Assembly (NCBI GenBank): GCA_028641055.1
Contig: CM054062.1
Span: 21,894,536 to 21,958,535 of the forward strand
Reading direction: 5' to 3'
Source of the DNA: Alopecurus myosuroides
Lineage: Eukaryota; Streptophyta; Magnoliopsida; Poales; Poaceae
Length of the DNA stretch: 64,000 nucleotides
Shown here: positions 18,350 to 51,132 of the stretch, piece after piece
Position numbering within the stretch: position 1 is the stretch's first letter
Layout: every line of letters begins with the position of its first letter
The notes under the pieces: generated by a model
Seen by the model: only the letters and a program-made list of their open reading frames with translations
What the model was told of the DNA's origin: nothing
Databases searched by the model: none
Translations under genes and position numbers: made by a program

Positions 18350-18828
18350 CACTACAGGAATGGCGCTAGGTTCCGACGGCCAAATTCTATGCCGACGGCA
18401 ATTTGTCGGGGCCGTCGGCATAGACCAAGTGAGGAAATTCCAAATTGCGAAAAAAAAATTAGCTACGCCGACGGCAATGCCGTCGGTCTATTTTTTTTTT
18501 TGAGCTACGCCGACGGTTGCCGTCGGCATTGACCCTAAGAGGGAATTCCGAATCGCGAAAAAAATTAGCCAAGCTCAAATTTCTTTTTTTTACTTAATCA
18601 CCATTTTGATCATAACTTTTGCATTTGAACTCAGATTTTGACGTTCTTTAGCTCGTTTCGAAAAGGAGAAACATATCTAAATTATCATGCATATTGTTAA
18701 AGCTAAATTATTATAAAAAATCATGAGAAAGAACGCAAGTAACAATAATGGGTTAACAGTTTCGTCTGAGAGGGTTGTGGAGCGTCTGAATCCAACCAAA
18801 ATATAGGTGGACCTAAAAATCATGAGAA

Positions 18829-19912
18829 ATAGGTAGTTGTGTACCTAAAATTTTTTTTTTTTGAAAAAATCATGAGCAAACTAGGAGACACCTGTAGTTT
18901 AAATTTGACCCGTTTCCAGCTGAATCAGCAGAAACTTATGTTTTGCAAAAGAGGTGGATGCAAACCTTTTCAGAGGAAACAAATTGGTTATTTGTGCATA
19001 TAACATGGTCTAGTATTTTCAAAAAAATGCAGCTCCCAGGTTTTGCAACATATTTGTGGTTGATGCTTCACAAAAAAAAGCCATTTTTCACACTCGGAAA
19101 ATGGAAAATGTTTTTTATTCAATGAAAGGGAAAACTTTCTCCGTGAACATTGTCCGTGCTTGCAATATGCATGTTTGTGTGGAATATGGGCATATTTAAA
19201 CAAACTATGCCATGGATTTGGCCATTACACCCGTCATTTGGCCCGAAACCCTAGAATGTTCGTAGGAGATAGCTCATTTATGTGAACATATTTTCAACAC
19301 AACTGTCGTATTCCAAGTTTATTGTTTTTGGTGGATACTAGGACATATCTAATGACACCACGCGAAGGTCTTGCATCATTTTGGGTTTTTCAAATTTTCT
19401 GGAATTTTCTAAGTCGGTTTCATGAAAAAGTCAAGACGGCGGGCATGGCCGTTCGTAGCTAGGGCTTGAATATTGAGAAACTTTGGTGTATCTCTGATGA
19501 AATAGGTAGTTGTGTACCTAAAAATTATTTTTTCCAAAAATCATGAGCAAACTACGAGTCACATGTAGTTCAAAATTGACATGTTTCCAACTGAATCGGC
19601 AGAAACTTGTGTTTTTCAAAAGAGGTGGATGAAAACCTTTTCAGAGGAAAATAATTGGTTATTAGTGCATATAACATGGTCTAGTATTTTCAAAAAATGC
19701 AGCTCCCAGGTTTTGCAACATATTTGTGGTTGATGCTTCACAAAAAAGCCATTTTTCACACTCGGAAAATGGAAAATGGTTTTTTATTCAATGAAAAGGA
19801 AAACTTTCTTCGGGAACATTGTCCGCGCTTCCAATATGCATGTTTGTGTGGAATATGGGCACATTTAAACAAACTTTGTCATGGATTTAACCATTACACC
19901 CGTCATTTGGCC
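18829..19912 (+). repeat. Direct duplication of about 410 bp inside CACTA 1
   Basis: Copy 1 (about 18829-19243) and copy 2 (about 19501-19912) both start at AATAGGTAGTTGTGTACCTA and end at ATTACACCCGTCATTTGGCC. They differ by scattered substitutions and small indels and are separated by about 255 bp. No coding function is visible. Confidence 0.85.
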
Positions 19913-20309
19913 TGTTTCCAGCTGAATCGGCAGAAACTGTCAAAACGGCCACCATGACTATTCATCAAAAGAGTTTAATTTTTTGAAACTATCGATGTTT
20001 TTATGATATGGATGTCATATTTGAATTTCTCTAATTTTTCTAATCGATTTAGACATTTTATTTGTTAAATTTCGATTTACGGATTTAAAGATATAAATTA
20101 TTGTATATTAAATAATTAATTCAAAAAATAAAGTAATTTCTAACATTATATTGTTATTTAGTCAATAAAGATAATTATATAATTATTGTTATTTATTCAA
20201 ATATTGTTTTAAATTTAAACAATAGAAAAGTTTAACATCATTCCCCACATGTTAATATGATTGATATGATAGTAATATCAGTAAGTTCTAACGTCTCATA
20301 TGGAATCTA

Positions 20310-20380
20310 GAGGAACTCAAAGTTTAAGCGTGCTTGGGCTGGAGAAATTTCAGGATGGGTAACCGAACGGGAAGTTTGAC
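20310..20380 (+). ncRNA. 5S rRNA-derived module in CACTA 1
   Basis: This segment resembles the 3' half of plant 5S rRNA. AAGCGTGCTTGGGC corresponds to the A-box region and CAGGATGGGTAACC to the C box of the internal Pol III promoter, followed by GGGAAGT. The intermediate element is altered. The end reads GGGAAGTTTGAC where 5S rRNA has GGGAAGTCC. It points toward the right terminus, about 323 bp away. Homologous flanking sequence (GATTGATATGATA at 20259) is shared with CACTA 2. It is not an intact 5S gene; any transcription is untested. Confidence 0.75.
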
Positions 20381-20706
20381 TAAGTTAAGTATGTTGACTA
20401 GATTAATTGTGTAATTAGAGATTAAATATGTGGATAAGTGAAAAATTCTAGAATAGAATTTCCAAAAAGTTCAAAAAAATAAGTTAAAAAACATTCGAAT
20501 TTTTTCTTGAATATTTTTTCAATTATTTTGAAAATATTGTGCCGACGGCTTTGCCGTCGGCATAGCCCTACGTCAACGGCTTTTAGTGTGCCGACGCGGG
20601 CATATGCCGATGGCAAGGCGCCGACGGCACAGCCTGTGCCGACGGGGTTTTAGCCTGTGCCGACGGCTGTTGGCCGTCGGCATATCGGGCGATTCCTGTA
20701 GTGTCA

Positions 20707-20820
20707 CCCCTTTGCTCTTGTGTAAGATTGTTCAAACTTGACCTCGATTTTGAGGGGGTCTTTGGGGTAATATACAAGCGGTGGGGAAAACTCTTCCCCC
20801 GCTATTCTCGAAAATAATAA
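20707..20820 (+). mobile_element. LINE 1 3' UTR and tail, continuing after CACTA 1
   Basis: After the second TCA the LINE resumes and ends in AAAATAATAA, where the Helitron begins. The four bases TTAA and the TAATGT duplication follow on the other side of the Helitron. Confidence 0.7.
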
Positions 20821-22896
20821 TCTTATATTTACTAATTGGAGACTCCCTACGAGGCTCCACGTTAATCCTAGAAAACTGCGTAAAAATAGCCTTAGGATCT
20901 AAATTCTATGTAAATTCTATGGTCTGGATGTTAATCCTAAAAAGTTACATTAAAATAGTCTTAAAATGTCAGGTTTACAATCTACGTTAAGTAACGTATC
21001 AAAGAGTTTTGTGTCTACACGTTTTCTGTCTTACTTGCATCATGTGGAAAAAAAGAAGGATATCTTTAATGTCTAGATTAAATAATGGATGGAAGTGTCC
21101 CATGTACATACATGATGTTTTTTTTAAAGTTATCACGTACAAGAACAAAAAGATTCTTTCTAAGAGTCCTAAATGCTTACAACTGAATATGTGAGTCCTT
21201 TAAACTTACAGATATGTGACCATCCTAGATCTGTTATTAGTGTGGGTCCAATACATAAAAAGATCTGTTATTAGTGTGGGTTCAATACATAAACATTAAA
21301 TACACGCTGAAGAGATAAATAATGTGAAGCATTAATTGCGCCTTATTTTGATTTATCGCATCTAACTCAATTTTGTTCAAGCCAGGATACTACCACGATA
21401 CACGCGTCCGGTCGGCTGGCGGACGACGTCCGACATTTTCAGCTGCCAGTTTCATCTGAAAATAATAATGACTTTTGAGATAATCAATGGACGCATGGAG
21501 TTCTAAGGCGTATCAAATAAATCACTATAATGGAGTTCTAAGGCGTATCAAATATTCGTTGAGTCTGCCTTGCACTTTTTTTTTGAATTTGAGTCTGCCT
21601 TGCACTTAACTAGCTGTAATCTCAAAGGCACCGGATAAGCAGAGTTCCATGTATTTTTAAGATATCTCAGTTAGCTGTTCATTTGCAGATAAATTGCCCA
21701 GTACAGCTAGCTTCATGACACAGCAATTGATTTTTCACACAACTGAACATCCATATGTGTACCGTAAAAAGCTTGCTAGCTCATACAGTGATTGATTTTT
21801 CACATAACATTTAATATATCCGCAAAAAACAGCCCGCATGCGCAGGCTTGGCTATCTCATCATGGCGGTCTGTACGTGATACACAACAATTTATCCTCTA
21901 TTTGGTCTAACTTGCCCGTGGCCTCTATTATTTACTGTATCTTCTGCGCATGCACCATGCATAACAGAAAAAGAATATATATGCATCTTCTAGAAAATTA
22001 AACCCCATAGCATTAAACATTAATACATGTTGAATTTAAACGTAAGTTACTCTTTAGACTGTAGATAGCAACATAATTCTTATTTGCACATGCATGTTGA
22101 GAAAAACAACTATTTGCACATGACTAAGAATAATATGAAGATATGCATTAAAATACATTTTGATGTCATGTTATTATTTCCTGCACTCATATTGTGATTC
22201 TCTCAATTTTAAGGTGAACATATATTTTACGTGAGCTAATTACCATGTTTATACGTACAGGTACGGGGCAAGCAACCAACCAAACAGATTAATTAGCGTA
22301 CGTTTTTTTTTTCTGTTCTAAATATAAAAGGAGAGGGTTAGTTCGGGTTTGACTGAATTATATTTCGAGCAGTAGAGTATGCTTAGCACCAAAAAGGATA
22401 AATTCTCATGGGCAATAGTAAGGTGCATATGTCAGACCTGAATTCCGTTTTTTTTTTCGCGGTGGTTGAAATGATGTGTCAGATCTGAATCTAAATTATG
22501 TGCCCTTATAGAGAAGAAGGAAATACTAGGAAACTGCAAAAAAAAAAAGTTGTCTTTACGATTGTCCAATTGTTTGAAATTTTCACATAACCAAATTTTT
22601 GGGACGATTTGTATTTACTTAACCACATAAGTTCCTCAATTCTATGATAACACTTAGAGATAAGAAATTATATTCTGAGTATATAAGTGTGTGACTTAGA
22701 GAGGGCAATGACATTGATAATGGTTACTTTACACTAATGTAACATTCCCATCAGAAAATCAAACATTTACAACATACAGATTCTCTGCAATCTCTTTTAT
22801 CTCTCTCTAATCTTAAAGAAAAACGAAGATCCAAATAAAATATGTTTGAAAAAGGAAAACACACCAGCCCGTGCGAAGGCACGGGTTGACGACTAG
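20821..22896 (+). mobile_element. Non-autonomous Helitron
   Basis: The 5' end TCTTATATTTACTAATTGGA is typical of grass Helitrons. The 3' end has the hairpin CCCGTGC/GCACGGG (22868-22885) followed eleven bases later by CTAG (22893-22896). It lies between host A (20820) and T (22897), the standard Helitron A/T target. No Rep-helicase frame exists. The interior is AT-rich with several short direct duplications (see findings) and no recognisable captured exon. Confidence 0.85.
22868..22885 (+). terminator. Helitron 3' terminal hairpin
   Basis: A 7-bp perfect stem CCCGTGC/GCACGGG with a four-base loop lies just upstream of the CTAG terminus. In rolling-circle transposition this hairpin signals termination. 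Confidence 0.85.
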
Positions 22897-22903
22897 TTAA
22901 TAA

Positions 22904-22915
22904 TAATGTCAATTG
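22904..22915 (+). repeat. 3' target-site duplication of LINE 1
   Basis: TAATGTCAATTG, partner of the copy at 11160-11171 with one mismatch. It fixes the 3' end of the LINE beyond the Helitron. Confidence 0.75.
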
Positions 22916-25214
22916 TGTATCAAAACTACAATTAAGCTCAGGACTATCTTCCTATGGTATCTTCCGGGTAGTTTTGATACTCAGCTAGAAGCTCAGGACT
23001 ATCTTCCATCAGCATGAGATATATTGTTTTTTTATCCAACGTTGGAGCTGGTCTCCTCGTAAGAAAAATTTACTACTAGAACGAGCTGGAATTATTGAGC
23101 AAGTGAACGTATGAATTGCGTGTCAGCAAAGCGACACGCTCGAGGCTGCATTCATAACCGTACCGGATGAACCCGCCTCGGTCGGCGGCTGGATTAGCAG
23201 ACGACAACAAAGATAACGTTTAGAACCACAAGATTCAACGCAGGGAGCGATCAAGATGTACTCGTTAGCAAAATTAATTAAACACACGAGTCAAATGGAG
23301 CGATGTGGTTATCCATTGCATCAGGGTTGTACACTTGTACTATTCCGAATTTCCGATATTGCTAAGTGCTGGGCGTGCCGGGCTCCAAATTTTCCAGCCC
23401 AGGATTCTCTTGCTGGAACAGGAAAATACTATATATGTTGATCCTGGTTATAAATGCTCCTGTCTAGAAAATCGATTTTCCAACGGTTAAAAAATTCCCG
23501 AAAAAATTAGGGACATGCCTACCCATGTATTATGCAGTAGTACAAAATTTTGTAAAGAAACACTTTTTCATTTGGCCTGTGCGAAAAAGACAAATCTACA
23601 ATGTATACCCTTCTATATAGCAATGAAAATTTGTCTTTTTTTCAAAGCCAACGTGAATACAAATTCGTCCTAAAACTCACTCGCGGCGCCTTGGATTTCC
23701 ATTCCTTATAAATTTGACTTCTTACGGATTTTTTAGACTTTTACAAAATTGTTTAAATCAACATTACAAAAAGAAATACAGTGTCTTTTTCGGCGAGGTT
23801 TCGTAGCTGCACTCTGCTGAAACGTGTCTTTTTTGTCGGAAACATGCTTGCTCTGGTAGCAAAAAAAGATCATTTGCTCATACGTAGCAAAAAACCGTTT
23901 TGTCACGGAAAACAAAAAAAAGACAAACCTTGCTGGAGACCCGTAGCAAAAAAATTGCTACAGTATTAAAAGTCGATTTTCGCCGAAGATATGGCCAGGA
24001 CTCTAGCTCGCTAGCTCGCCGGAGAATCTCATAACAAAAAAGTTATACAGATATAGTAAAAACATAGACTAATTCTAGCCAAAAAAAAATTATGTTGTAG
24101 CAAAAACCCGACCCCGCCTGAGTTATTGTAAAAAGAGCAAACAAAGTAACAGTATGTAAAAAAATTCGCCGCCGCTCTAATTTTCGGAGCACCGACGCCG
24201 GCGTTCGGGAGCAATCCGTTAGTCCTATGGGAGCACCACCGCTAGGTCCTGGAGCACCGCCGTCGTTGCCCAGACGGACCTGGAGGTGGAGTTGATGGAC
24301 ACCACCAGCCGCTGGAGACACAGGAGGACCCCGACCCTTGACGCTGGACTGTAGCAAACAAAATTCTCCCGTTGTGGCCTCCATCTCCGGCGACGGCGGG
24401 GCACCGGAGAACCTATGACTTGGTATGGCAGGGCTGTCCTCGCGGAGACAAGGTTTATCAGCGCAGCGAGCTGACGACGGGAGTGTGGCGTGTCGCCGGA
24501 GGACGACGGCGAGTACGGGCTTGAGGCCCTGGCCATGGCACCTAGGGCCCGTTAGGGCACGGGTGTACCGTGGAGACGAGGGCCGGCGGCGCAATGAGAT
24601 GACGGCGGAAGTGTGCCGTGCTCGTGGGAGGACGACCGCGAAGACAGGCTTGGGGCCCAGCCATGGTGATTGGGGACAGGCTCGCGGCGGGTCGGAGCTT
24701 GAGGGGTGCGACCACCGTCGAAGGCTTGTAGCTTGATGGTTGCGGCCCCGTGTTGGAGGCGATGGAGCTCACTTTTCTCGCCGCTAAGAAGGACAGAGAG
24801 CCGCCGTGGGATTAAAAGAGGGGAAGGAGTGGACAAAGAGTCAAAGACGAACACGCATGGGAAGGGGGAAAAGAAAACGCAACGTGAGGAGATAAGGTTG
24901 GGCATACCCGTTCTCTCGCTTAGTCATGTTGAGACGTGGCGCAAGGGCAAACCCGGGGAACGCGAGGGAGCGATCCCCCGGATGATCCTAAGCGTTTTGG
25001 TAGGGAATAGGGAGACACGGCTATAGCCCTACGGAGTGAAAGCGTGAAGCACGCTGGTCTCTCTGTCTTCCACGCGAGGCTAGCTTTCATCGTTGACCAA
25101 AAACCGGCCGTCTACCACGCCGTTGGATCCTGCAATGGGGCAGATCCGAGCCGTCCCATATTGTGCAAGGTAATTTTAATATTTTGTCCACTCATAGTTC
25201 TACTAAAACAATAT
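22916..25214. other. Unassigned sequence, AT-rich then GC-rich
   Basis: 22916-24170 is AT-rich, with repeated GTAGCAAAAA-like words from about 23870. 24170-25100 is GC-rich, with two related blocks (around 24465-24545 and 24600-24670) that look like diverged copies of one segment. Similar TAGCAAA words recur at 25920-26180, so one larger DNA element may span about 23500-26250. I find no terminal repeats and no recognisable protein. Confidence 0.35.
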
Positions 25215-25798
25215 GAGCATCTCCAGCAGATCATCTATATTTTATCATCTATATCCGGCAGCCCTCCCACCTCCAGCAGCCCCGGACGTGGTGCCCGCAT
25301 CCGACCCAGCCCCTGCGCCCGTCGGCAGCGCCCCAGCCTCCCACCACCCCCCACCCCCCCACCCCTGCGCATCTGCGCCTGATGGCGGCTTCCCGAGCCC
25401 CAGCCCCTCGCCTTTGCGCACGACGGCGGCGCCCCAGCCCATGCGCCTCTGCGCGCGACGGCGGCGCTCGACGACCCTGCTCGAGCTTGGAAAAATAAAT
25501 CCAACGGGGAATCGAGGAGGACCCGTACCTGAGCGACGAATTGGGGAGGGGGGGGAGCGGCACCGACGTCTTGGTTCCTGCTGGGACCTCCGGATGCGCG
25601 CAGGAAAATTCTTCGCTCGGAGCTGTTGGTTTGGCAGATCAACTCTCCATCCCCAGATATGTCTGATGGGTAGAATTTTTTGGGGTCAGCTAAAGGTAGA
25701 TGACGACATAGCTGATCTGCCGGAAGCGGGTTTTTTTTTGCCCGTTGGTCCTCTATACGACTATAGATGTCCGTTTGGACATGCTGCTGGAGATGATC
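25215..25798. mobile_element. PIF/Harbinger-like MITE
   Basis: Inverted ends GAGCATCTCCAGCAG (25215-25229) and CTGCTGGAGATGATC (25784-25798) match in 14 of 15 positions. Flanks are TAT and TAA, an imperfect 3-bp duplication. The interior is proline/alanine-codon rich by composition but has no recognised gene. Confidence 0.6.
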
Positions 25799-26264
25799 TA
25801 AGTAGTCTTTCTTCTCCACTTAAAAAACAAAATGGTATGTCGAATTGTCCTATCCTTTCATTTAATCACAAACGATTGCAAGTATTTCCAGCAACAAAAA
25901 TATTGTTGAATAAAACAAAATTCATGCAGATTCATTTGCTACAAAAATCACCAGCTACTTCAATACAAATTCCAAGAGAAAACATATCTTTGTAGCATTT
26001 GAAAACACGTAAACATTATCAAAAAATACGAGGAAACACACAGATTTGTAGCAAATGACCAGAAAATCTTGTAACATCCGGCGTGAGATTACAAAATTAA
26101 AGGAATTTTACAACTTGGAGACACGTATTTAAATAAAAAATCATGAGGAAATACAACCTTGTACCAATCGCTTAGAAAACTTTGCAGCATTCGGGTGTGC
26201 TTTCTCAACAAAATCTGTGTGACTTTTTTTTGTTTAACCATCCATGCAAGGCTAAAAATGACGA
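25799..26264. other. AT-rich left flank of the gypsy element
   Basis: AT-rich, with TAGCAAA words like those near 23900. No gene is visible. Confidence 0.35.
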
Positions 26265-26429
26265 TGTCACGGCCGGGCCTACGGCCCACTGTAGAAGGAA
26301 TAAGTCCCAGGAAGTCACGCCAGCCCAATTGGCCCAAGCACCTGAAGTAAAATAGATGACGATAGAGGAGGGCGAACAGATTAGACTCGAGTTTGTATCT
26401 CTCGTTGTAACCAAAATACCAAAACCCCG
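26265..26429 (+). repeat. Left part of the gypsy 5' LTR
   Basis: It begins TGTCACGGCCGGG and continues, across LINE 2, at 32212. Together the parts make an LTR of about 215 bp, directly before a tRNA primer-binding site. The expected terminal CA reads TA, so the right end is approximate. Confidence 0.55.
26421..26429 (+). repeat. Candidate target duplication of LINE 2 (AAAACCCCG)
   Basis: AAAACCCCG occurs here and at 32203-32211, where it overlaps the end of the A tail. Nine bases is short for a LINE, but joining the flanks gives a continuous LTR sequence. Confidence 0.5.
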
Positions 26430-26632
26430 CAGGGACTCTAAAGATCTGAGTTTTTCCCCTAGGGTTTCAGACCTAGGGTTTTCCTGTCCTCTGGCGGCGA
26501 TCGCCAAAGTACTCATCGTAACCATCAGAGTTTCCATCGCGCCTTTGGTGGAGGCGTTACACCCTCTGCATACCGGCCTTCGGTGTTTCTTAGGGTCCTG
26601 TTGTTCTGAGAGTTCCGCTCGCTAGATTTGCC

Positions 26633-28021
26633 ATGGCGGATACTGAAGGTCGTCCTCGGGCGGGGATGACGGAGGAAGCGATTAATCTCCTTGAGCGATT
26701 ACATCTGGAAGAAAACGAACTCGATGATCTAATCTAGGAGGATGAGGCGGATGATCCGGGAGATAAACCAAAGTGGCTTGCCCTGGCTAGGGTTTTGACA
26801 TCAAAATCTTTTAGTCAAGGAGCACTGATTGCTGACATGAGAGCTGCGTGGAATCCGGCGCAGCAGGTAACATGGAGGCGCATAAATCCGAATTTGTTCT
26901 CGATACAATTCAGTTGCCTGGCGGATTGGAACAAGGCAATACATCAGGGGCCGTGGGAGTTTAGAGGGTTTGGAGCTCTGATCATGGCAGACTATGATGG
27001 CTTCTCCAATCCTGAAGATATCAAATTAGATAAATTGGAAACGTGGTGCCAAATCCACAAGCTCCCTGATGTTGTACTCAAGAACGAAAACTTTGTCAAG
27101 AACATGGCAAAACGTATAGGAGAAGTTCAAGAACTGCAGATAACTCTCCCGAGCGGATTCATTGGACAATTTATTCGAGCTCGGGTGAAAGTGGATGTTA
27201 ACCAGAAATTGACAAGGTTTGTAAGCTTTACGAAATCTGGGAAAACACAGTTCTTTCAAGTCAAATATGAGAAGCTGCCCCAGTTTTGTTATGCTTGCGG
27301 GAAAATGGGCCATTGGCACCAAGAATGTGGATCTGGAGAATTTGAAGAGGATAAGCTTGAATGGGGTCCATTTATTCTAGCCCCCCGGAGGGGTAGAGGG
27401 ATTGGACGTGGTGGCAGACAACAGCGTGATGGGGGTAGAGGACGTGGTGAATTTCCAAACCATACTGAATCTGGCCGTGGTAGAGGGGGCTTTGGTAGAG
27501 GAGATGGGGATCGAGGCAATACGGTACGCTTAAATGATACTTCTGATGAATATTTTGATCCTGCACATCACAGTTGGCGATGGAACAGTAATACTCAAGT
27601 CATCACAGATGAAAACGAGTCGAAGGGGAACTTACTGGATATAGCTCCATTTGCGAAAAAACGCCTAGCTATGGGATCTGGTACTGTGACTACAGGTAAT
27701 GTGTTGACGACGGCGACTGATAAATCTTATTTTGTAGTACAGAGAGTGGATCAATTGGAAAAGGGGCAGGACACACCCAATGATCCGAAAACAACTCCTC
27801 AGAAAAATCTGAACAAAAAGAAACTCAAGGCTCAGAATGGTGTAGCTATTGATTCTATGGATATGCTTTTGCAAGGAACTGACGATGATATGAATGCATC
27901 TGCAACAAATTCTGCTCAGGGGATGGAAGAAGAACCAACAATACAACAAATCGAAGGTGGAGCTAACTCCTCTTCACTAGGATCGGCGGGCTCCCGGGAG
28001 GAGTCCGTCCGGTCGCAATGA
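26633..28021 (+). pseudogene. LINE 2 ORF1, gag-like RNA-binding protein, one stop
   Basis: The frame starts at ATG 26633 (MADTEGRPRAG) and stays open to TGA 28019-28021 except for one in-frame TAG at 26735-26737 (codon 35). An internal ATG at 26795 could restart it. A DUF4283 domain occupies about residues 50-200. A zf-CCHC_4 knuckle, CYACGKMGHWHQEC, lies at about 27287-27328. A Gly/Arg-rich RGRG region (27388-27520) and an acidic tail follow. The terminal TGA overlaps the ATG of ORF2. The family role is RNA packaging. Confidence 0.8.
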
Positions 28022-31000
28022 AACTCTTATCTTGGAACTGCCGTGGCTTGGGCAATGCGGCGGCAGTTCGAGCGCTTCTGGATGTCCTGAAGCGTTATAA
28101 TCCTGACGTAATTTTCTTAATGGAGACCCATATCGATCAGCATCAAGCTGATTGCATTCGTAGACAAATTAAAATGGAGTTTACTATTATACAACCAAGT
28201 GATGGAAGACGTGGGGGAATCTTATTGTGGTGGAAGGCAGAGATTAAGATTAATCAAATCTATGCTTGCCCAAACTATATTGATGTGAGAGTTGAGGAAG
28301 AACATGATAAAATCTGGAGGTTTACTGGTATGTATGGGGAGTTTAAATGGACTGAGAAGCACAAAACTTGGGACAGACTGAGATCGATTTACCAGCAAAA
28401 CAATCTCCCCTGGTTAGTTTTGGGTGATCTTAATGAGATACTCTACTCTCATGAAAAAGAGGGTGGCAGAGTTAGACCAGAGAGATTTACCAAGGCTTTT
28501 CATGATGCTATTGACAACTGCGAACTTGATGATGTTGGTTTTATTGGAGATCCCTTCACATGGCATAGGGGAGTGATGAGAGAACGGCTAGACAGAGGGC
28601 TTGCTAATGCTAGTTGGAGACAAATGCAGTCACGTGCGGCCATTATACATTTGGAGTATAATCATTCGTACCACCGACCGATTATGTTAGATACTGACTA
28701 CTATGCACCAAATTCTAGTGGTCCAAGAAGAATTCCTAACTTTGAAGCAAAATGGTTTAAAGAAGAAGGTTTCAATGATATAGTCAAAGATCAGTGGCTC
28801 GCTGCAGCCTCGGGGGATGAGGTGATCGACGTGCTGGACCATTTAAAGGCCATGCATGCAGGCTTACATGCATGGGATCACCGGGTACTGAGGAAACCGA
28901 AACAACGGCTCCGGAGAGCACAGCGTGAGTTGGAGGCGATCATGCGGGGTCCCATTACAGCAGACTATGAATCAAAGAAATATGAACTTGCTCAGCTCAT
29001 TGAAAATTTATTAGAGCAAGAAGAGATAAAATGGTGCCAACGTTCTCGCGCAAACTGGCTTCAAAACGGAGATAAAAATACCTCCTTTTTTCACAGCTTT
29101 GCTTCGGCTAGGAGGAAACGCAATTTCATAAAGAGGCTCAAGAATCCTGATGGAGATTTTATCGAGGGAACAGAGGCTCTTAACCCTATTATTCTTGATT
29201 ATTTTTCTCAATTGTTTTCTTCGGAGTCTAACATAACTGATCAGTCTTTTCTTGACAAAATAGGCCCAAAAGTATCACAGGAGATGAATACTGCATTGAT
29301 GGAACCATTTACTGACAGTGATGTTAGGAAGGCAGCTTTTAGCATTGGAGACCTAAAAGCTCCCGGTCCGGATGGTCTCCATGCGCTTTTCTACAAAAAG
29401 TTTTGGCATCTGGTTGGTAATGATATTACCCAGGCTGTTTTACACGCGATCAATGAGAAATCTATTCCTGCTGGTTGGAACGAGACCGTGGTTGTACTGA
29501 TTCCTAAAACTGAAAACCCGGAGGAGGTATCACAGTTCAGACCCATCTCTCTTTGTAATGTGGTATACAAAATAATCTCGAAGATGCTAACGGCAAGACT
29601 GAAGGTTATTCTGCCAGATATTATTTCTCCTACTCAAAGTGCGTTTGTTCCTGGAAGGCTTATTACTGATAATATCCTTGTGGCTTATGAATGTGTCCAC
29701 AAGATCAAGAATAAAAGGAAAGGTAAAACTGGTCTTTGTGCTGTTAAGCTTGATATGCATAAAGCGTACGACAGGGTTGAGTGGAGTTTCTTAAGGAAAG
29801 TTATGATCCAAATGGGTTTTGATGAGAATTGGGTGAATTTAATTATGGCTTGTGTTTCATCAGTTTCCTACTCAGTCAGATTCAATTCCCAACTAACGGA
29901 AAATTTATTCCAACAAGAGGTATTCGACAAGGGGACCCTCTATCCCCTTATTTGTTCTTGTTTTGTGCAGAAGGGTTATCAAGCGCGCTGTTGCACGCAG
30001 AGGAGATTGGTGCCATAGAAGGAGTTAAGGTGTGCAGGAATGCACCGTCAGTTTCACACCTGTTATTCGCTGACGATTCCTTAATCCTCCTCAAAGCTGA
30101 TTTAAATAATGCAATCTCGTTGCAACAAGTCCTTGATTCTTACTGTGATAATTCGGGACAACGTATAAGTGTGGCCAAATCTAGTATATATTTCAGCCCA
30201 AATACGACTGTTGATGAGAAGGTAAATATTTGCAATACACTTCATATTAATACGGAGGCTCTGTCTGATAAGTATTTGGGCCTTCTAGCAATTGTTGGAG
30301 CTGATAGAAGTGATTGTTTTTTGCATTTTGTGGAGAGGATCATGCAAAGAATTAAAGGTTGGAAGGAAAAACAACTATCCATTGGTGGGAAGGAGATTCT
30401 CTTAAAGGCTATTGCCCAATCAATTCCTGTTTATGCAATGTCGGTCTTTCTCTTGCCTAAAAAAGTTTGCAAAAAGATCACGAATGTCATTGCACAATTT
30501 TGGTGGGGTGACGATGATCAGGGAAAGAAAATGCATTGGTACGCATGGTGGAAATTGTGTTTTCCAAAGAAAGATGGAGGTATGGGATTTAGAGATTTAC
30601 ACTCTTTTAATCTTGCTCTCCTAGCAAAACAGGTTTGGAGGTTAATTGATGAACCAAACTCCCTATGTGCTAGAATTCTAAAAGCAAAATATTATCCAAA
30701 CAATGATATTCTCCAAGCAGGATCAAAATCGGGTTCATGTTTCACATGGCAAAGTATAGTGGCTGGCATCAAAACTTTCAAAAGGGGGCTGCATTTGGAG
30801 AATTGGTAATGGAGATTCGGTTAACATATGGAGTGATCCCTGGATTCCAAGTAGTCCTGATAGGAAAATCTTAACTCCTAAAGGAAATTGTATCCTCAAC
30901 TATGTGTCTGATCTGATCAATCCAATTACTGGGATGTGGGATCAGGAGCTAATTAACTCTATCTTTCACCCTATTGATGTGAACAGAATATTGGAAATTC

Positions 31001-32084
31001 CGGTGACTTTGAATGCTTTTGATGACTTCTTGGGATGGAGAGGTACTAGGTCTGGTACTTTCTCGGTGCGATCAGCATACCATATTGAATGGCGCCACCA
31101 GTTTAATGGAGTGTCCTGCCGATCACTTATACAAGGTACTTCTGTTAACAATCCTATTTGGAAAATTCTGTGGAAATTGAAAGTTTCAGCAAAGATAAAG
31201 ATCTTTTGTTGGAGAGTTTTGCATGGCATCATCCCAGTAAAAAATATCTTACTCAATCGTCACATTGGTTCTAGTGATATATGCCCGGTTTGCAATCAGG
31301 AACCTGAAGATATTATGCATATGATTTTTAAATGCCCCGTAACTGTAACTATATGGCGCCAGCTTGGACTTCAAGATGTTATAAATAATGAAATCCGTGA
31401 TGATCGATCGGGTTCAGTGGTTCTGCAAGAAATCCTTAAACTGCCCCCGGTTACTGTTCCTGGCTATGACAAGATCAGAATACAAGATACAGTTGCTGTC
31501 GCTGCTTGGTACCTTTGGTGGCTTAGACGTCGACGTACCCATGGATAATCAGTGCCTCCGGAAAACAAAATTGTTGCTTCAATCTTGGCAATTACGTGGG
31601 AAAAACCGGGTGCTGGTTACATTAAGATAAATGTTGATGCTGCATTTGCAATTGAGGATCGATCTGGTGCTATTGGCGTGGTCTTGAGGGATAGCCAGGG
31701 GGTTTTGTGGCAGCTTCTACATCTTTCATATCGCATGTGGCGTCGTCTTCAGTGGCGGAAGCTTTGGCTATGCTCCATGGACTCCAGGTAGCTAATAATC
31801 TGGGTTTTAGCAAGATACAAGCTGAGTCTGATAATCTGGAAGTGATCCAACTATGCATGGGTGAGGAGAGAATTTGCAATGAAGCCATAGCGGTGTATGC
31901 TGATATTATTTCAACGGCAGGTTTAATTGGTTATGTCTCTTTTAGTCATTGCAGAAGGGAAACGAATGAAGTGGCTCATGCTCTTGCTAGGAATTGTTTT
32001 GCAAATAAAATTTCGTGTAACTGGGACGATGATCCCCCTAGATTTATTCTTGATAAACTTCTGAACGATGTTAGTATGATTTGA
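28018..32084 (+). pseudogene. LINE 2 ORF2, endonuclease, RT and RNase H, frameshifted
   Basis: ATG at 28018 overlaps the ORF1 stop as ATGA. Domains in order are: endonuclease (MKLLSWNCRGLGNA, then WLVLGDLNEIL; 28018-28700), linker, and reverse transcriptase (LKAPGPDGLHALFYKKFW, FRPISLCNVVYKIISK, KLDMHKAYDRVEW; then in the next frame RQGDPLSPYLFLF and FADDSLILL, about 29930-30090). A zf-RVT block (CPVCNQEPEDIMHMIFKC, about 31280) and a type-I RNase H (INVDAAFA at 31630; AESDNLEV at 31823) follow. Frame changes occur near 29900, 30805 and 31705, with a stop at 31546-31548. It ends at TGA 32082-32084. A handful of lesions in 4 kb suggests fairly recent loss. Confidence 0.85.
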
Positions 32085-32196
32085 TTGAGAGGCAGCAAGT
32101 ATCTTACGCACTCTTTTCCTTGTCAGTGTACCTTTGGGGACTGGCAAGGTTTTTAATGAGGCGGCTTGCTGACCTAATATATATGGTTTAAATTTC

Positions 32197-32206
32197 AAAA
32201 AAAAAA
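32197..32206 (+). other. Poly(A) tail of LINE 2
   Basis: Ten A residues follow the 3' UTR, directly before the continuation of the gypsy LTR. Confidence 0.8.
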
Positions 32207-32265
32207 CCCCGTTGTGAAACTCTGTACTGTTTCGGTGATGAAATCGTGAGAGAGAGTGTAAAAAA

Positions 32266-32279
32266 TGGTATCGTGAGCC
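32266..32279 (+). promoter_or_regulatory. Gypsy primer-binding site
   Basis: TGGTATCGTGAGCC resembles the initiator-Met tRNA site TGGTATCAGAGC and lies three bases after the presumed LTR end. It sets the plus-strand orientation of the gypsy element. Confidence 0.6.
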
Positions 32280-32445
32280 TTTTTTCGATCCCCGGGCTTC
32301 GCTTGATCTGTAAATCCGCGTGTGATTGGCTGTGATTTTTGAATTGAGGCTGTAATTCCTATTTCGTGGTACGATCGCGTCACCGTGGTTCAGTTCTGGC
32401 GCCCAGGAAAAAGCTCTCGGCGGTGGAATCGCAGATTGCGGCCGC

Positions 32446-32448
32446 AGT
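32446..32448 (+). repeat. Target duplication AGT, left of CACTA 2
   Basis: AGT here and at 35417-35419. Joining the flanks restores the gypsy leader that ends just before the gag ATG. Confidence 0.85.
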
Positions 32449-32784
32449 CACTGGTAGAAAAAGGCCTTTAGTCCGGGTTCGCGAAGGCCAATAGTCCCGG
32501 CCGCGCAACCGGGACTAAATATGTGCGACTAATGGCAACCCCCTTTAGTCGCGCCGTTTACGGACCGAGACTAAAGGCCCGCCACGTGGGCAGTGGGCGT
32601 GCGCCGGAGGCGGGAGGACCTTTAGTCCCGGTTTTTGACACGAACCGGGACTACTGGCTATTTCGTTATTTCTTTAATTCATTTGGGTTTCTAATTATTT
32701 TTCACTCCAATTTTTCACTCCTTTTTTTCAGAATTTTTATTATTTGCTTAGTGTCTAACTACAATTATCTCTAGTCAAGTTACT

Positions 32785-32877
32785 TACTCGTGGTCAAACT
32801 TCCCGCTCGGTCACCCGTCCTCGCACTACTCTAGCACTAGCACGCTTAACTTCTGAGTTCCATCCCGTACCGCATCC
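32785..32877 (-). ncRNA. 5S rRNA-derived module in CACTA 2
   Basis: Read on the minus strand from 32877 it starts GGATGCGGTA, like the 5' end of plant 5S rRNA. It lacks about 20 bases and continues with GAAGTTAAGCGTGCT (A box), an intermediate-element-like GAGTAGT, and AGGACGGGTGACC (C box). It ends GGGAAGTTTGAC. It points to the left terminus, about 344 bp away. The A box is unaltered and the C box has a single change, so it is the better preserved of the two modules. It is not a full 5S gene. Confidence 0.8.
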
Positions 32878-33060
32878 AAGTGTTTCGCACGCATATATGT
32901 GATACTAGTATCATATCAATCTATTAACATGTTGGTCGATGCCACATTTTTTTATTGTCTGAATTTCAAATAAATCTTTTAATAAACAAAAGTAATGATG
33001 TAATTAATAATTTTGAATAAATAAATAAACATTAACTTTTTAATTTGTATTATTTTTAAA

Positions 33061-33275
33061 AAATATTCAGAAAAATAAAACTAATTCATTTAAGAATCTT
33101 AAAAATACAAATAATATATCAAAATATTCAGAAAAATAAAACTAATTCATTTTAAAATCTTAGAAATACAAATAATATATCAAATAATTCAGAAAAATAA
33201 AACTAATTCATTTTAAAATCTTAAAAATACAAATAATATATCATAAAATTCAGAAAAATAAAACTAATTCATTTT
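33061..33275 (+). repeat. AT-rich tandem repeat, period about 60 bp
   Basis: Three and a half copies of a unit containing CAGAAAAATAAAACTAATTC and ACAAATAATATATC, differing by a few bases each. It is internal to CACTA 2 and has no coding content. Confidence 0.85.
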
Positions 33276-33898
33276 CCCCTTTCCTAAGTTCAAAATAAAA
33301 TCTGATAAAATTCATGAATCAAACCATATGAAATCTAAACCATATAAAATTTGCAGATCTAAGTTATGACTATTATTTTGGACACAAGAACTGTTTTGGC
33401 AATGACTATCTGTGATAAAATTTGCAGATATAGAAACAGTAGTTTTTCTGTTTTGTTTTCTTGATGTGTTTTTGTTTGTTTTGGAATGTGTGTTTGATAA
33501 TATCTTGCTTCCTAGCTTGTATAGAGTGTTAGGACTTGATATTAGGTTGTTTGCTTGCAGAACATCTAACTTAGAAAGTGTGTGCATGATTGGAAACTCA
33601 AATAAAAATGGAACTAGCATTTGTTACTTTCTAGTTTTAATATTTTGGAATTGTGTGTGAGCTAGATCTTTGTGTGATTGCTTTAGTAAATTTTGTGCTT
33701 TGTTTAACCCGTGATTTTATTTGAGCCATTACATAACATAGCGGTACATATATATATATATATCCATTACATAGTATAGAAATAATATAGATAGGAATTA
33801 ATATAGAAATAATATAGGAATTAATAGATCCATTACATAATATATCCATTACATAATATAGAACGCAACATAGCAAATGCGGTACACACAAACAACAT

Positions 33899-35022
33899 CT
33901 ACTCGAGCTCCGAAGAGTAGATGCGGAGCAACTCGAAGGCAGCGTATGCATCTATTGCTGCATACTCGAGATTGATCCGGTCAAGTGGGTTCTTCCCCCA
34001 ATAAAAGTGATTCTTCGAGGGGAAAGAAGTCTTCATGGTTTTGTAGTCGAGGTGGATGAAGGCAGTTGCCATACTAGCCATCCCAGTCTTTTGCCCGTAC
34101 AGGTCATCGAAATGGATCAAGTCCTGAAGATCAATGTAGTGATCTTCAGGTATCTCAATACCCAATGTGCGCATCAACTTCTGCCGGTCATTTGTGATGT
34201 CAACGCTACAGAAGTCGTACCCTTTATTGACAAGAAAATCAACAAGTTCTGGAGATTGCTTTGAACTACTGCAACAACAAAAAGGGAACACGTGTTAGAT
34301 ATTGTTGCAACACGTGTATTCTTACAATGCAACAACAAAAATGGAACATAATTTTCCTATGCAACAACAACAAATAGAAAATGCTATATTGCTACCCTAT
34401 GCAATTTTCCTCTCTACAATTGCTACCCTATGCAATTTTCCTCTCTACAATTAATGCAACAAGTGATACTATTGCTATCAACATGACAACACAATTTTCC
34501 TCTCTACAATTGCTACCCTATGCAATTTTCCTCTCTACAATTGCAACAAGTGATACTATTGCTATCAACATGACAACACAATTTTCCTCTCTACAATTGC
34601 TACCCTATGCAATTTTCCTATCTACAATTGCAACAAGTGATACTATTGCTATCAAAATGACAACACAATTTTCCTCTCTACAATTGCTACCCTATGCAAT
34701 TTTCCTTTCTACAATTGCAAAAAGTGATCGATACTATTGCTATCAACATGACAACGTACACAATTTTCCTACAAGAGAGATCGTGTGCGTACCTTGCCCA
34801 TCGGAAGACAAGCACGGTATCCTTGATCGCAATTTGGATGACGGCCACATCCCGTTGATCCGCCGTGTACTCCAAATCAAGCCCGGAGAACTTGTGGTGT
34901 TCATCGGCGGCTTCATAGCGATTTCTCAAACGGCGAAGAACAGCGGGGAGCCTCTCGCACATATTGGTATAGAAGACATGGATATTCTTGCGCATGGCGT
35001 GGGCACATGGAGAACGTTCCAA
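33899..35022 (-). CDS. WRN-like 3'-5' exonuclease, two exons, captured in CACTA 2
   Basis: Exon 1 is 34793-35022 (or from the second ATG at 34995) and exon 2 is 33899-34268. The donor AAG/GTACGC and the acceptor TTGCAG/T are canonical, and the split codon keeps the frame. The protein is about 190-200 residues, the size of one DnaQ/RNase D-type exonuclease domain. Exo I is GLDLEYT (Asp, Glu), Exo II lies near VDITNDRQKLM, and Exo III is the DEDDy hallmark YAAIDAY. All four acidic metal-ligand positions appear present. Such proteins trim DNA 3' ends; here the host is a transposon, so function is uncertain. There is no helicase part. No promoter is recognised. The start choice is open between the two ATGs. 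Confidence 0.75.
34387..34755 (+). repeat. Minisatellite in the exonuclease intron, period about 88-90 bp
   Basis: Four copies contain TGATACTATTGCTATCAACA and repeated CAATTTTCCTCTCTACAATT. The array fills most of the 524-bp intron (34269-34792). It keeps a plus-strand frame open by chance. Confidence 0.85.
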
Positions 35023-35426
35023 ACGGGAGAATCCATGGGTGGTGGTGTGGAGGAAGAAGAGAGAGCATCAAGATAAGAGAAGAGAGGAAGAAGGAACAGA
35101 GACCGCGCACTGTAGCGAATGGCCTTATTCCTCTCGTTCGCGAAATAAGAGAACGCGCGGGAGGCGAGCAGTTTCGACATTTAGTCGCGGGTGGCCAGGC
35201 CAGCCGGGACTAAAGGCCGGGATGCCAGTCGTTGGGACCTTTAGTCGCGGGTGGCCAGGCCAACCGGAATTAATGCCCTCCGCGCACTTCCCCAACTGCC
35301 GTTCATTTCATTTAGTCGCAGGTCGCCTCGCGAACCGTGACTAAAGCGCATTTAGTCACGGTTCGTATTCTTTGGGGACTAATGGGGGCGTATGGAAGGC
35401 CTTTTTTCTACCAGTGAGTCGCGACA

Positions 35427-49071: not shown

Positions 49072-51132
49072 GTATAATCTCTACTAAATTAGTCGTCCAT
49101 TCTACTTTGGCCTAAGAACGGAATTCTAGTCATCTTTTGGAAGAGGTCTCACAAGCGTCAATTTATTCAAAATAAAATGACTCCGGAAGTCCATCAATAT
49201 GGAGTTCCTTCATGTTTTCTTTTCCGATATGAACTAAAATGGTGGTGTCACAATTTAAGTGAAACTCTTTTACGTCTTGCAACGTTTAGCATTCAGTCTT
49301 ATAGATGTTTACTTTACCAACATGATTTATATTAACATATCCATCAATTATGGAACATGGTCATAGTTTGAACAATCTCATTTGTTCTCACAAAAGACTA
49401 GAACAAAATAACAACTTATTAAGTTCTTAAAATAAATCTTGAATGTTTGGTTCGATACGACAATGAACACAATAACACTTTATTTCTGTTCTTGTCATAA
49501 TCCATTCCACATCTATTACTAGTTCCTTTTAGGCCCTTGTATTTCTTGCATTGCGTTGCTTTGTATGAAAACTCATACCAACCAATGTGGTATCAAAATA
49601 CCAAAAAATACTTTGTTAACTAGTAATACATCTACAAATTGTATATCAAGCATATACTCCTGAGCTGGACTTTTCCAGTTATCTTCTTTTTCTGCCATAT
49701 ATCTTTTTGTAATTCTATTTTCAATATCCCCTTTCCTTTACAGAAGAATCATTGAACATCAAACAATGCTAGCCGTACTAGCTCATTTTCTTTGGTGTGT
49801 TAGTCATATACCATCACCCATTGAGTCATACTTTGAGTTTGATTGTTCTACTAATATCACCATATTAATAGCATTCTTCTAGATTCCACTCTTAGCAATT
49901 TCCAAATAAGGTAAACTACTTTACCCATACTTCTAATCCATCCCATCATAACAATTTTATGATTAAGCTACTATAGCTCGAAGGAAGGGATTTAGAGGAT
50001 AATTTTTAGCGCCCAACTTCTTGGAATATTCAAACGCCTAGCATCTTCAATCATTGCATATATTTAAATAATATAAGCAAACATTGTCACGCTAAATTTG
50101 CATATATTCAGATAATATAAGCAAACATTGTCACGCTAAATTATACCCAGTCATGTTGCCACAAATAAGTTTCTAGATATCAATATATCTTTCACTTGAT
50201 TGTTTCTGAAAACAACTCTTTTCAGTTCCTAAATCACCTTGATCAACTAAACATTCTTTTGAAGATAAAGTAATAAGGAAGCAACCATGACTATGGATTC
50301 TAAGTAGGAATTGGTTGCTCTCTAGATCAATCAATCATTAATCACATGGACCTAGGTAGGAAATACCGTAAATCTACAATAGGATTCAATTTTAAATTTC
50401 ACTAATACGGTACCAATATTAAATGGTATTTACCATTTCATAACAGTTATATCTCAATTAACAATCTAAGCGTAAGGTAGTTATGTGGATGCCAATGAAT
50501 ACTACAATTTGTGCAAATTCACTTTGATTTGTTGTTCATGATAAATAAGTTCAAGTTAATTCAAAAATTAAACCATGAACTCCCACTCAAAAACAACATC
50601 CCTATTAGTCGTTTTTAGTGATTACACGAACCAAATTCACTACACCAAAACCGATCATCACGTGAGATGATGTAGTTTCAAAGGTGAACATCGACATGTT
50701 CATCATATCATCCATATGACTCATACTTTACCTTTCGGTTACGTGTTCCGAGGCCATGTCTGTACATGCTAGGCTCGCCAAGTAGAACCGTAGTATTGCG
50801 TGTGTTTCAAGGCCATGTCTGTACATGCTAGGCTTGAAAACACCCGTTGTATGCGAACGTTGAGTCTATCACACCCGATCATCACGTGGTGTCTTGAAAC
50901 GACGAACTTTTTTAACGGTGCATACTTAAGGAAGAACACATCATTATCTTGATATTAAGTGAGAGGGATCATCTTATAATGCTACCGTCGCTATATAAGC
51001 AAAACAAGATGCATAAAAGGATTAACATCACAAACATCACATGTAAGGATAACGTGATATGATATGGTCCTCCTTGCACTTGATCTCCATCATGTGCATC
51101 ATGGTATGATCTCCATCATCCCACCGGCGTGG
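49072..51132. repeat. Internal duplication, copy A
   Basis: 2061 bp starting GTATAATCTCTACTAAATTA and ending CCCACCGGCGTGG. It is nearly identical to copy B at 51819-53878; about five differences in the first 400 bp by eye. A CACTA terminus follows directly. Confidence 0.95.

Follow-up and report, generated by a model that had tools for sequence, protein, structure and literature searches.

A 5S-like promoter module near the ends of two CACTA transposon families in Alopecurus myosuroides most likely derives from the Cassandra LTR

Introduction

Two non-autonomous CACTA transposons from Alopecurus myosuroides each carry, close to one terminus and pointing towards it, a single module resembling the internal promoter of 5S rRNA genes. 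The module is most likely a piece of the long terminal repeat (LTR) of the retroelement Cassandra rather than a captured 5S gene, since every promoter change common to the consensus sequences of the two families, and the non-5S sequence upstream of the promoter, also occurs in Cassandra. The account that we hold with considerable confidence is that the 5′ half of a Cassandra LTR was captured by an ancestral CACTA element, was inherited by two families, and is carried mainly as a passenger. It draws on homology, copy number, position, direction, intact consensus boxes and 14 long relatives free of the exact motif, all within one plant genome.

Two CACTA elements and their modules

The window, i.e. 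the whole stretch of DNA analysed, comprises 64,000 nt of assembly GCA_028641055.1 (CM054062.1:21,894,536-21,958,535, forward strand). Element E1 occupies 18350..20703 (+) and has the terminal inverted repeat (TIR) CACTACAGGAAT.., matching at 12/13 positions, and the 3-bp target site duplication (TSD) TCA. Element E2 (32449..35416, −) has the TIR CACTGGTAGAAAAA.. (13/13) and the 3-bp TSD AGT. Both therefore show the CACTA/CACTG TIRs and 3-bp target duplication by which CACTA elements are recognised, and both have short direct and inverted subterminal repeats (GCCGACGGC/GCCGTCGGC in E1, TTTAGTCCCGG/CCGGGACTAAA in E2). A scan of the window for TIRs with TSDs yielded only these two pairs; among 20 random first-order sequences, two gave one pair each. 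E1 has no open reading frame (ORF) of at least 100 aa (the largest has 86 aa), and the six such ORFs of E2 contain no transposase domain, which is why both are called non-autonomous. Only PF01612 exceeded the cut-off; it marks a captured 3′-5′ exonuclease gene fragment inside E2 (33899..34291, −), on the same strand as the E2 module.

The earlier note on this DNA had proposed that the modules are homologous and alike in position and direction, and its particulars hold. The window holds the motif GGGAAGTTTGAC at two places only, the module ends of E1 (20369..20380, +) and E2 (32793..32804, −), where it is preceded by ACCGAAC and ACCGAGC, respectively; its last five bases are CACTA-specific. Two matches with at most one mismatch were found in 3 of 100 shuffled windows. 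The E1 module ends 323 bp, and the E2 module 344 bp, from the terminus that it faces (32449 in E2); for two modules of random place and orientation, the probability that both come within 350 bp of the terminus they face is 0.02. Upstream, the block ACATGTTAATATGATTGATATGATA of E1 (20247..20271, +), just before the inferred 5S +1 (20273), is identical in 24/25 alignment columns to that of E2 (32909..32933, −), which contains ACATGTTAATAGATTGATATGATA; with changes, it is also present in the Cassandra LTR.

Between block and end motif lies a 5S-like internal control region corresponding to 5S positions 41-103, at 20313..20375 (+) in E1 (47/63 identical to 5S) and 32798..32860 (−) in E2 (52/63). 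The 5S reference sequence occurs verbatim in the A. myosuroides genome. Local scores against it were 31 for E1 and 41 for E2, with a maximum of 14 in 300 shuffles. Box A of E1 (20322..20333, +) differs at one position from the Cassandra consensus RGTTAAGYRHGY, as given in an excerpt of PMC7215508, and box C, AGGATGGGTAACC (20352..20364, +), follows after 18 nt. The corresponding pair in E2 (32809..32851, −) also has one mismatch; the consensus sequences of both families have none. With up to three mismatches allowed, these are the only such pairs in the window, and none occurred in 100 shuffled windows. The two modules are homologous over ~270 bp (score 81; maximum of 100 shuffles 16), each element has one copy with CACTA sequence on both sides, and a profile of the module picks up no further copy in the window. 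Comparison of the terminal, first-400 and middle parts of E1 and E2 gave scores of 12, 8 and 18, which do not exceed those of shuffles (14, 14 and 22).

The modules are not 5S rRNA genes in the sense of a ~119-nt gene folding as 5S rRNA. Positions 104-119 of 5S are unrecognisable in them, as are positions 1-40 in E1, and in E2 positions 1-40 are weak (P 0.015). Rfam returned no 5S hit in the whole window, either at the gathering score or at E up to 1; on 521-base stretches, the 5S model scored 18.8 bits for E1 and 23.3 bits for E2 (gathering 38; E 0.28 and 0.019). In the E1 stretch, this score sits among chance families of similar score. The upstream block was also considered as a plant 5S promoter element, for which part of PMC8264772 gives a TATA-like motif at −28 to −23 and GC at −12/−11. 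This was rejected, as the position of TTAATA differs between E2 (−27 to −22) and E1 (−21 to −16), there is no GC at −12/−11, and similarity between the modules and the genomic 5S unit is confined to the core.

Genome-wide occurrence and common descent

The last 12 bases of the module occur in 3551 genome copies (1793 + 1758), compared with 112 (50 + 62) for a reversed-pattern control. An exact E2 terminus follows the module end at 325-355 bp in 289 + 263 copies (control 0 + 0). TIR and TSD are present at 14 of 20 sampled loci; in these, the module lies at a distance of 333-393 bp from the terminus it faces, and the opposite terminus is at least 1.8 kb away. A search of the downstream side found terminus sequence at 300-393 bp in 19 of the 20; the remaining locus (L014) has a damaged terminus at about 366-370 bp. 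Conversely, the motif accompanies 33 of the 100 exact E2 termini examined on C1, in 31 cases at a distance of 257-393 bp. The survey of module distance and orientation that the earlier note had called for, run here in this one genome, thus bears out its expectation: other copies carry the module at a similar distance (~250-395 bp) and in the same direction.

None of 10 ORFs from sampled E2-type loci contained a transposase. A genome search for transposase gave 21189 first-look candidates, of which 150 were scored, none so far connected with the module. Viral and prokaryote collections held no relatives, a result without weight because the plant 5S stretch is itself absent from the viral set and one pattern would also catch plant 5S.

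The family consensuses resemble each other outside the promoter as well: in 300 shuffles each, the upstream 95 bp, which run about 8 bp into the weakly matching start of the LTR, scored 31 (maximum 24), and the downstream 80 bp 18 (maximum 15). The idea that shared derived changes point to one ancestral module therefore holds in part. Flank homology argues for a single ancestral element, but the four changes shared in the core all occur in Cassandra too. Likewise, the fixed place is real in that distance and direction are similar across copies, but it does not speak for function, since a position inherited by common descent reflects one event.

Cassandra as the likely source

The genome contains Cassandra elements such as L042 (C1:57753335), with two 283-bp LTRs (271/283 identical), the TSD TAGAC and a primer-binding site (PBS) containing TGGTATCAGAGC. 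In a two-sequence comparison, the E1-family consensus matches a Cassandra LTR consensus built from 10 LTRs over 145 bp without gaps (76.6%, E 7e-33). The match covers LTR positions 7-151, near the LTR start, and includes ~80 bp of non-5S sequence before the promoter; mapped from the consensus, it corresponds to 20237..20375 (+) in E1, with small deletions and an approximate left edge. LTR positions 24-50 match the E2-family consensus at 85%. The earlier note had described this upstream block as "not 5S sequence"; the block matches Cassandra LTR sequence, and a direct 5S source is not supported.

In the 63-nt core, the numbers of matches are 57 for E1 and Cassandra, 52 for E2 and 5S, 51 for E1 and E2, 50 for E2 and Cassandra, and 49 for E1 and 5S (consensus sequences throughout). 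At sites 68, 93, 94 and 96, E1, E2 and Cassandra agree against 5S, and positions 41-103 contain no change private to the two CACTA consensuses. The window copies share 11/73 columns against 5S; the family consensuses share only these four inside 41-103.

GTTTGAC and the flanks are common to both CACTA families and not found in Cassandra. Beyond position 151, the LTR is unalignable to the CACTA copies (38/300 and 123/300 shuffles reached the score), so that LTR sequence surrounds the 5S domain on the upstream half only. L042 has an LTR pair and PBS; around the modules, there are neither two LTRs nor the PBS TGGTATCAGAGC nor a polypurine tract. With a single module per element, bounded by CACTA sequence, the module is derived from Cassandra and is not itself a Cassandra.

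That the CACTA ancestor captured a 5S gene directly, with no Cassandra step, would fit the E2 core, whose identity with 5S (52/63) slightly exceeds that with Cassandra (50/63). We regard this as very improbable: Cassandra has both the upstream block and the four changes common to the consensuses, the genomic 5S unit matches both consensuses in the 63-bp core only, and the 145-bp match of E1, beginning near the LTR start, largely refutes it. The relationships within the shared sequence are mosaic. Six core states (48, 69, 73, 75, 77, 78) are shared by E1 and Cassandra and absent in E2, whereas in the 27-nt block E1 and E2 are closest (24/27, versus 22 for E1 and Cassandra and 23 for E2 and Cassandra); between block and core, no other sequence outscored 5S by more than 1-2 points in alignment with E2. 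Such a pattern implies that sequence was exchanged later, that capture happened twice, or that transfer ran in reverse. In the last case, the LTR 5′ half of this lineage's Cassandra would have come from an E1-like CACTA cassette, as could be read from the six core sites that, with 5S as outgroup, join E1 and Cassandra and leave E2 outside, and from the CACTA flanks common to E1 and E2. It seems unlikely to us, because Cassandra is probably older than these CACTA families: according to the part of PMC7215508 available, Cassandra elements with 5S domains occur in all vascular plants investigated, ferns included.

Long relatives and mobilisation

Long relatives of E2 were scored mainly by the exact 12-base motif. 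None of the 14 long inverted pairs bounded by E2-type termini contains it, and neither the four sequenced ends of two of these pairs nor four further 3′-type ends have a module; among another 12 termini that lack the exact motif, one has a module with one mismatch. One long relative carries PF13952 (DUF4216), a domain that we take to belong to CACTA transposase genes, and has in common with E2 only the terminal 209 bp, at the gene-3′ end. In the window, this shared stretch is 32449..32657 (−; inner edge approximate, mapped from consensus positions 488-696). Two 3-kb stretches from the interior of this relative yielded 10 ORFs, none with the PF02992 transposase domain, so that it is at most a candidate autonomous element.

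That 14/14 long relatives lack the exact motif suggests that transposition is probably independent of the module. The suggestion that the module marks the end for the transposase, as a recognition or positioning signal, has the similar distance (about 250-395 bp) and direction to the terminus in its favour. Descent accounts for that distance, and the motif-free long pairs and module-free ends just described make such a signal extremely improbable.

Possible capacity for Pol III transcription

The earlier note had also envisaged a Pol III transcript running through the terminus. This would fit E2-type copies and not E1-type copies, which have T-runs 86-175 nt after the module. In E1, the first T-run (T6, 20500..20505, +) is a likely stop before the subterminal repeats; in E2, the first on the module strand (T5, 32458..32462, −) lies inside the TIR, as does the first run of at least four T in 14/17 E2-type copies. 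For most E2-type copies, a Pol III transcript is thus predicted to terminate within the terminal repeat, ~430-490 nt from the inferred +1; in E1-type copies, it would stop far short of the terminus, at ~200-290 nt.

The cassette might be a working Pol III unit under selection that binds TFIIIA/TFIIIC and so keeps the 3′ subterminal region open; its RNA, ending in E2-type copies in the TTTT of the terminal repeat, would help copies to escape silencing or act as a decoy. Boxes A and C are intact and 18 nt apart in both consensuses, as in Cassandra and 5S. With boxes defined as in Cassandra (25 positions, leaving 38 core positions outside), differences avoid the boxes in comparisons of E2 with 5S (0/25 versus 11/38, P 0.002), E1 with 5S (1/25 versus 13/38, P 0.005), E2 with Cassandra (1/25 versus 12/38, P 0.01) and E1 with E2 (1/25 versus 11/38, P 0.02). 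The upstream blocks of the window copies are identical in 24/24 ungapped columns, against 126/192 in the flanks (P 1e-4), and the fold of the hypothetical E2 RNA beats 100/100 shuffles (z −3.5), although part of this score stems from subterminal inverted repeats.

The box pattern may, however, predate capture, being present in Cassandra: between E1 and Cassandra, differences number 1/25 and 5/38 (P 0.39). Wider boxes (A 50-64, intermediate element, C 80-97) remove significance against 5S (P 0.11 for E1, 0.30 for E2), and in the window copies neither boxes versus the rest of the core (P 0.36) nor core versus flanks (P 0.085) is significant. Sixteen E2-type copies, with three indel copies left out and L024-L026 being near-duplicates, deviate at raw rates of 0.013 in boxes and 0.023 elsewhere. 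Copies agree with the consensus at 0.90-0.95 both across the module and well upstream of it, the end motif itself having been the selection criterion. Locus L018 lacks most of the core, yet has TIR and TSD, and the E1 RNA fold is unremarkable (z −1.6; 12/200 shuffles as good). A test for selection on the A and C boxes, as proposed earlier, gives no significant selection after capture where this can be isolated, and the contrast with 5S varies with box boundaries. Absence of T4 in E2 was discarded as a sign of selection, since it is not rare given the composition (P 0.40 window, 0.19 consensus). A selected Pol III unit is accordingly a minority reading, perhaps a one-in-four matter of judgement. 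We would put somewhat less trust still in the stronger idea that these families are DNA-transposon/TRIM hybrids, in which a Cassandra-derived type-1 promoter in thousands of copies yields an E2-type RNA of the element's own 3′ end that crosses the subterminal repeats, stops in the TIR TTTT and modulates silencing or mobilisation.

Proposed history and relation to known systems

The favoured history, capture from Cassandra, would begin with the 5′ half of the LTR of this TRIM, a cassette from near the LTR start with an AT-rich upstream block and a 5S-derived promoter of presumed type-1 Pol III architecture (box A, intermediate element, box C). An ancestral CACTA element would have taken in this piece just inside its 3′ terminal region, transfer probably running from Cassandra to CACTA. 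E1-like and E2-like non-autonomous families, whose termini differ, would have inherited it, place and orientation included, and spread it in thousands of copies, presumably through mobilisation in trans by long relatives lacking the cassette. The cassette is probably in the main a passenger, though TFIIIA/TFIIIC might still bind its promoter and short transcripts might start there.

Wicker et al. (2003, Plant Physiol 132:52) reportedly noted a 5S-like sequence in a CACTA element, with element and insert of the types described here. The contributions of the present analysis are the Cassandra origin, the presence of the cassette in two families, its absence from long relatives and its genome-wide position. 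SINE3 elements consist of a 5S head and a LINE-like 3′ tail and lack TIRs.

Cassandra, as far as covered by excerpts of PMC7215508 and PMC10853983, has a 5S-derived core with boxes A and C 18 nt apart and freely changing spacers, and positions 7-151 of its LTR can be aligned without gaps to the module of the E1 family; unlike Cassandra, the module sits in a DNA transposon without LTR pair, PBS or polypurine tract and runs into CACTA-specific GTTTGAC and flanks. Ajax and SINE3-type elements are likewise mobile with a 5S-derived Pol III promoter, but are retroelements in the part of PMC10886601 concerned, whereas E1 and E2 are cut-and-paste elements with a second-hand promoter copy. In an Aegilops speltoides clone, En/Spm adjoins 5S rDNA; the relevant passages of PMC6178165 present a composite of several fragments and describe no conserved module.

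The finding would place a promoter cassette of a class I element (TRIM), domesticated or hitch-hiking, in class II transposons at high copy number. 5S-type Pol III promoters would thereby have spread through the genome independently of 5S arrays and Cassandra, with consequences for the annotation of 5S-like sequences and the reading of 5S FISH and Pol III ChIP signals in large plant genomes. It also raises a clear question, namely whether the 3′ ends of CACTA elements are bound by Pol III factors.

Two CACTA elements with a 5S-like cassette

The window (G000:C6:21894536-21958535) has repeats that appear to be of the kind found in large grass genomes. A scan for CACTA or CACTG termini with at least 11 of 13 matching terminal inverted repeat (TIR) bases and an exact 3-bp target site duplication (TSD) yields two elements in the window, E1 (18350-20703, forward strand) and E2 (32449-35416, reverse strand); 2 of 20 first-order random sequences gave one match each. 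A transposase is recognisable in neither, by open reading frames (ORFs) or domain search; the latter places part of a 3'-5' exonuclease gene (PF01612; 33899-34291, reverse strand) inside E2. By blastn, most of the E2-type copies sampled have parts of the E2 interior. Within E1 there is a direct duplication (18854-19243 and 19525-19912, spacing about 670 bp), and repeated stretches resembling it occur in the sampled copies L011 and, in its E1-like part, L017.

Near one terminus, each element carries a cassette consisting of a 5S-like core with box A and box C, and an upstream block. The letters, coordinates and distances in the earlier note are all correct on re-checking, and the homology that it proposed between the two modules is borne out by an alignment score of 81, against 16 for the best of 100 shuffles. 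By the same comparison, the terminal, first-400 and middle parts of E1 and E2 show no homology above chance. The core corresponds to 5S positions 41-103 (identity 47/63 in E1, 52/63 in E2), with 18 nt separating the boxes. Box pairs with at most three mismatches occur at only these two places in the window and in none of 100 shuffles; the Rfam 5S model stays below its threshold in the window and in the module stretches. Immediately upstream of the E2 cassette (33060-33275), and also in L010 and L012, are 61-bp AT-rich tandem repeats, which differ in number among copies.

Between E1 and E2 lie LINE-like ORFs (26795-32084), with endonuclease and reverse transcriptase domains at 28018-30018. A direct repeat of about 2 kb (49072-51039 and 51819-53785, spacing about 2.75 kb; 99-100% identity across the four 300-bp blocks reported) is probably a recent duplication. 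Two long direct repeat pairs (39061-40315/60697-61914 and 44912-45767/54403-55242; 84-97% identity in reported blocks) are perhaps LTR pairs of nested retrotransposons.

Distribution of the cassette in the genome

In the assembly searched (3.57 Gb, 3227 contigs), the 12-base module end GGGAAGTTTGAC has 3551 exact matches, against 112 for a reversed-pattern control. Twenty loci (L009-L028) were sampled from the first 21 places among the matches listed, all on contig C1; the place at 2695744, 2.6 kb from a neighbouring one, was omitted. Eighteen are E2-type and two E1-type. The module thus recurs in other CACTA copies at similar distance and direction: in 14/20, which have both TIR and TSD, it lies 333-393 bp short of the terminus to which it points. 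Terminus sequence lies 300-393 bp downstream in 19 (the search covered the downstream side only), and the remaining locus, L014, has a damaged terminus at about 366-370. L024-L026, found within 40 kb of sequence and flanked by the same TSD (GGT), are apparently one insertion copied, leaving about 18 independent loci. Genome-wide, 552 copies have the module end followed after 325-355 bp by an exact E2 terminus (control 0).

A core pattern common to E1-type copies and Cassandra, a TRIM retrotransposon with a 5S-derived Pol III promoter in its LTR, has 224 copies (control 0); among the 100 matches listed are Cassandra and a few E2-like forms. Its first 12 loci comprise one Cassandra and 11 CACTA copies, all but one of which (L036) have the CACTACAGGAA terminus sequence at 247-395 bp (scored by terminus only). 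One place, L033 or L011, belongs to both samples.

Conversely, exact E2-type termini number 4493, and the first 100, which are all on C1, were surveyed for the exact motif. In 33 the motif lies no more than 2 kb away and points the same way, at 257-393 bp in 31 and at 1454 and 1475 in the other two; one more terminus has it about 1.6 kb away, pointing the opposite way. The exact terminus is present at 33/93 motif places of the surveyed C1 stretch. None of 14 long inverted pairs with E2-type termini (8.7-12.9 kb) contains the exact motif. Of 12 further termini lacking it, one has the module but with a single mismatch, six look like the other end, four are 3'-type ends whose similarity to E2 is limited to the last 209 bp, and one matches nothing. 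The ends of two long elements likewise match E2 over the last 209 bp at most. One of these encodes PF13952, on the strand that makes the E2-like end the 3' end; no PF02992 domain turned up in the 6 kb of long element examined. From this survey and the long-element ends, the cassette is a property of non-autonomous lineages, inside termini common with long elements, which we infer supply transposase.

Origin of the cassette

L042 is a Cassandra element with two 283-bp LTRs, TSD TAGAC and a primer-binding site containing TGGTATCAGAGC (site as given in PMC7215508). Positions 7-151 of an LTR consensus (10 LTRs, 6 loci) align with the E1-type consensus, E1c, over 145 bp ungapped at 76.6%, about 80 bp of which are non-5S. 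In the 63-nt core, E1c and Cassandra agree at 57 positions, the most of any pair. E1c, the E2-type consensus E2c and Cassandra have four changes from 5S in common, whereas no change is confined to E1c and E2c. The true 5S array (C1, 278.1 Mb; 310-bp units) matches the modules in the core only; separate from it, G000:C1:190292672-190449047 holds ten divergent, irregularly spaced 5S-like copies.

Because E1c-E2c similarity continues into flanks outside the LTR zone, a single cassette-bearing CACTA ancestor is supported, in line with the single ancestral module of the earlier note. The core groups E1 with Cassandra and the upstream block groups E1 with E2. This mosaic points to possible later exchange, and transfer in either direction would be compatible with it. 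Cassandra is reported from every vascular plant investigated (PMC7215508), which favours it as donor. The literature searched, in the portions available, yielded no report of a Cassandra-derived cassette in CACTA elements.

Promoter function or passenger

The boxes are intact in E1c and E2c and the spacers are changed, as reported for Cassandra itself (PMC10853983). As to selection on the boxes, for which the earlier note suggested a test, the box-spacer contrast with 5S is significant under the Cassandra box definition but not when the boxes are drawn wider, nor is the excess of changes outside the boxes between E1c and Cassandra. Since, in addition, the agreement of E2-type copies with their consensus stays at about one level from well upstream of the module to the module itself, the box pattern may, on sequence comparison, be an inheritance from Cassandra. 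One sampled copy, L018, has TIR and TSD although most of its core is lost: box A is missing and little of box C is left, while the end motif is kept.

The earlier note also envisaged a Pol III transcript through the terminus. This fits E2-type copies, where the first run of at least four T on the module strand lies inside the terminal repeat in 14/17 (earlier in L010, L013 and L027), but not E1-type copies, where it comes 86-175 nt past the module. From these positions, only in E2-type copies could a Pol III transcript conceivably stop at the terminus. For the CACTA families, the cassette is more likely a passenger than a selected function.
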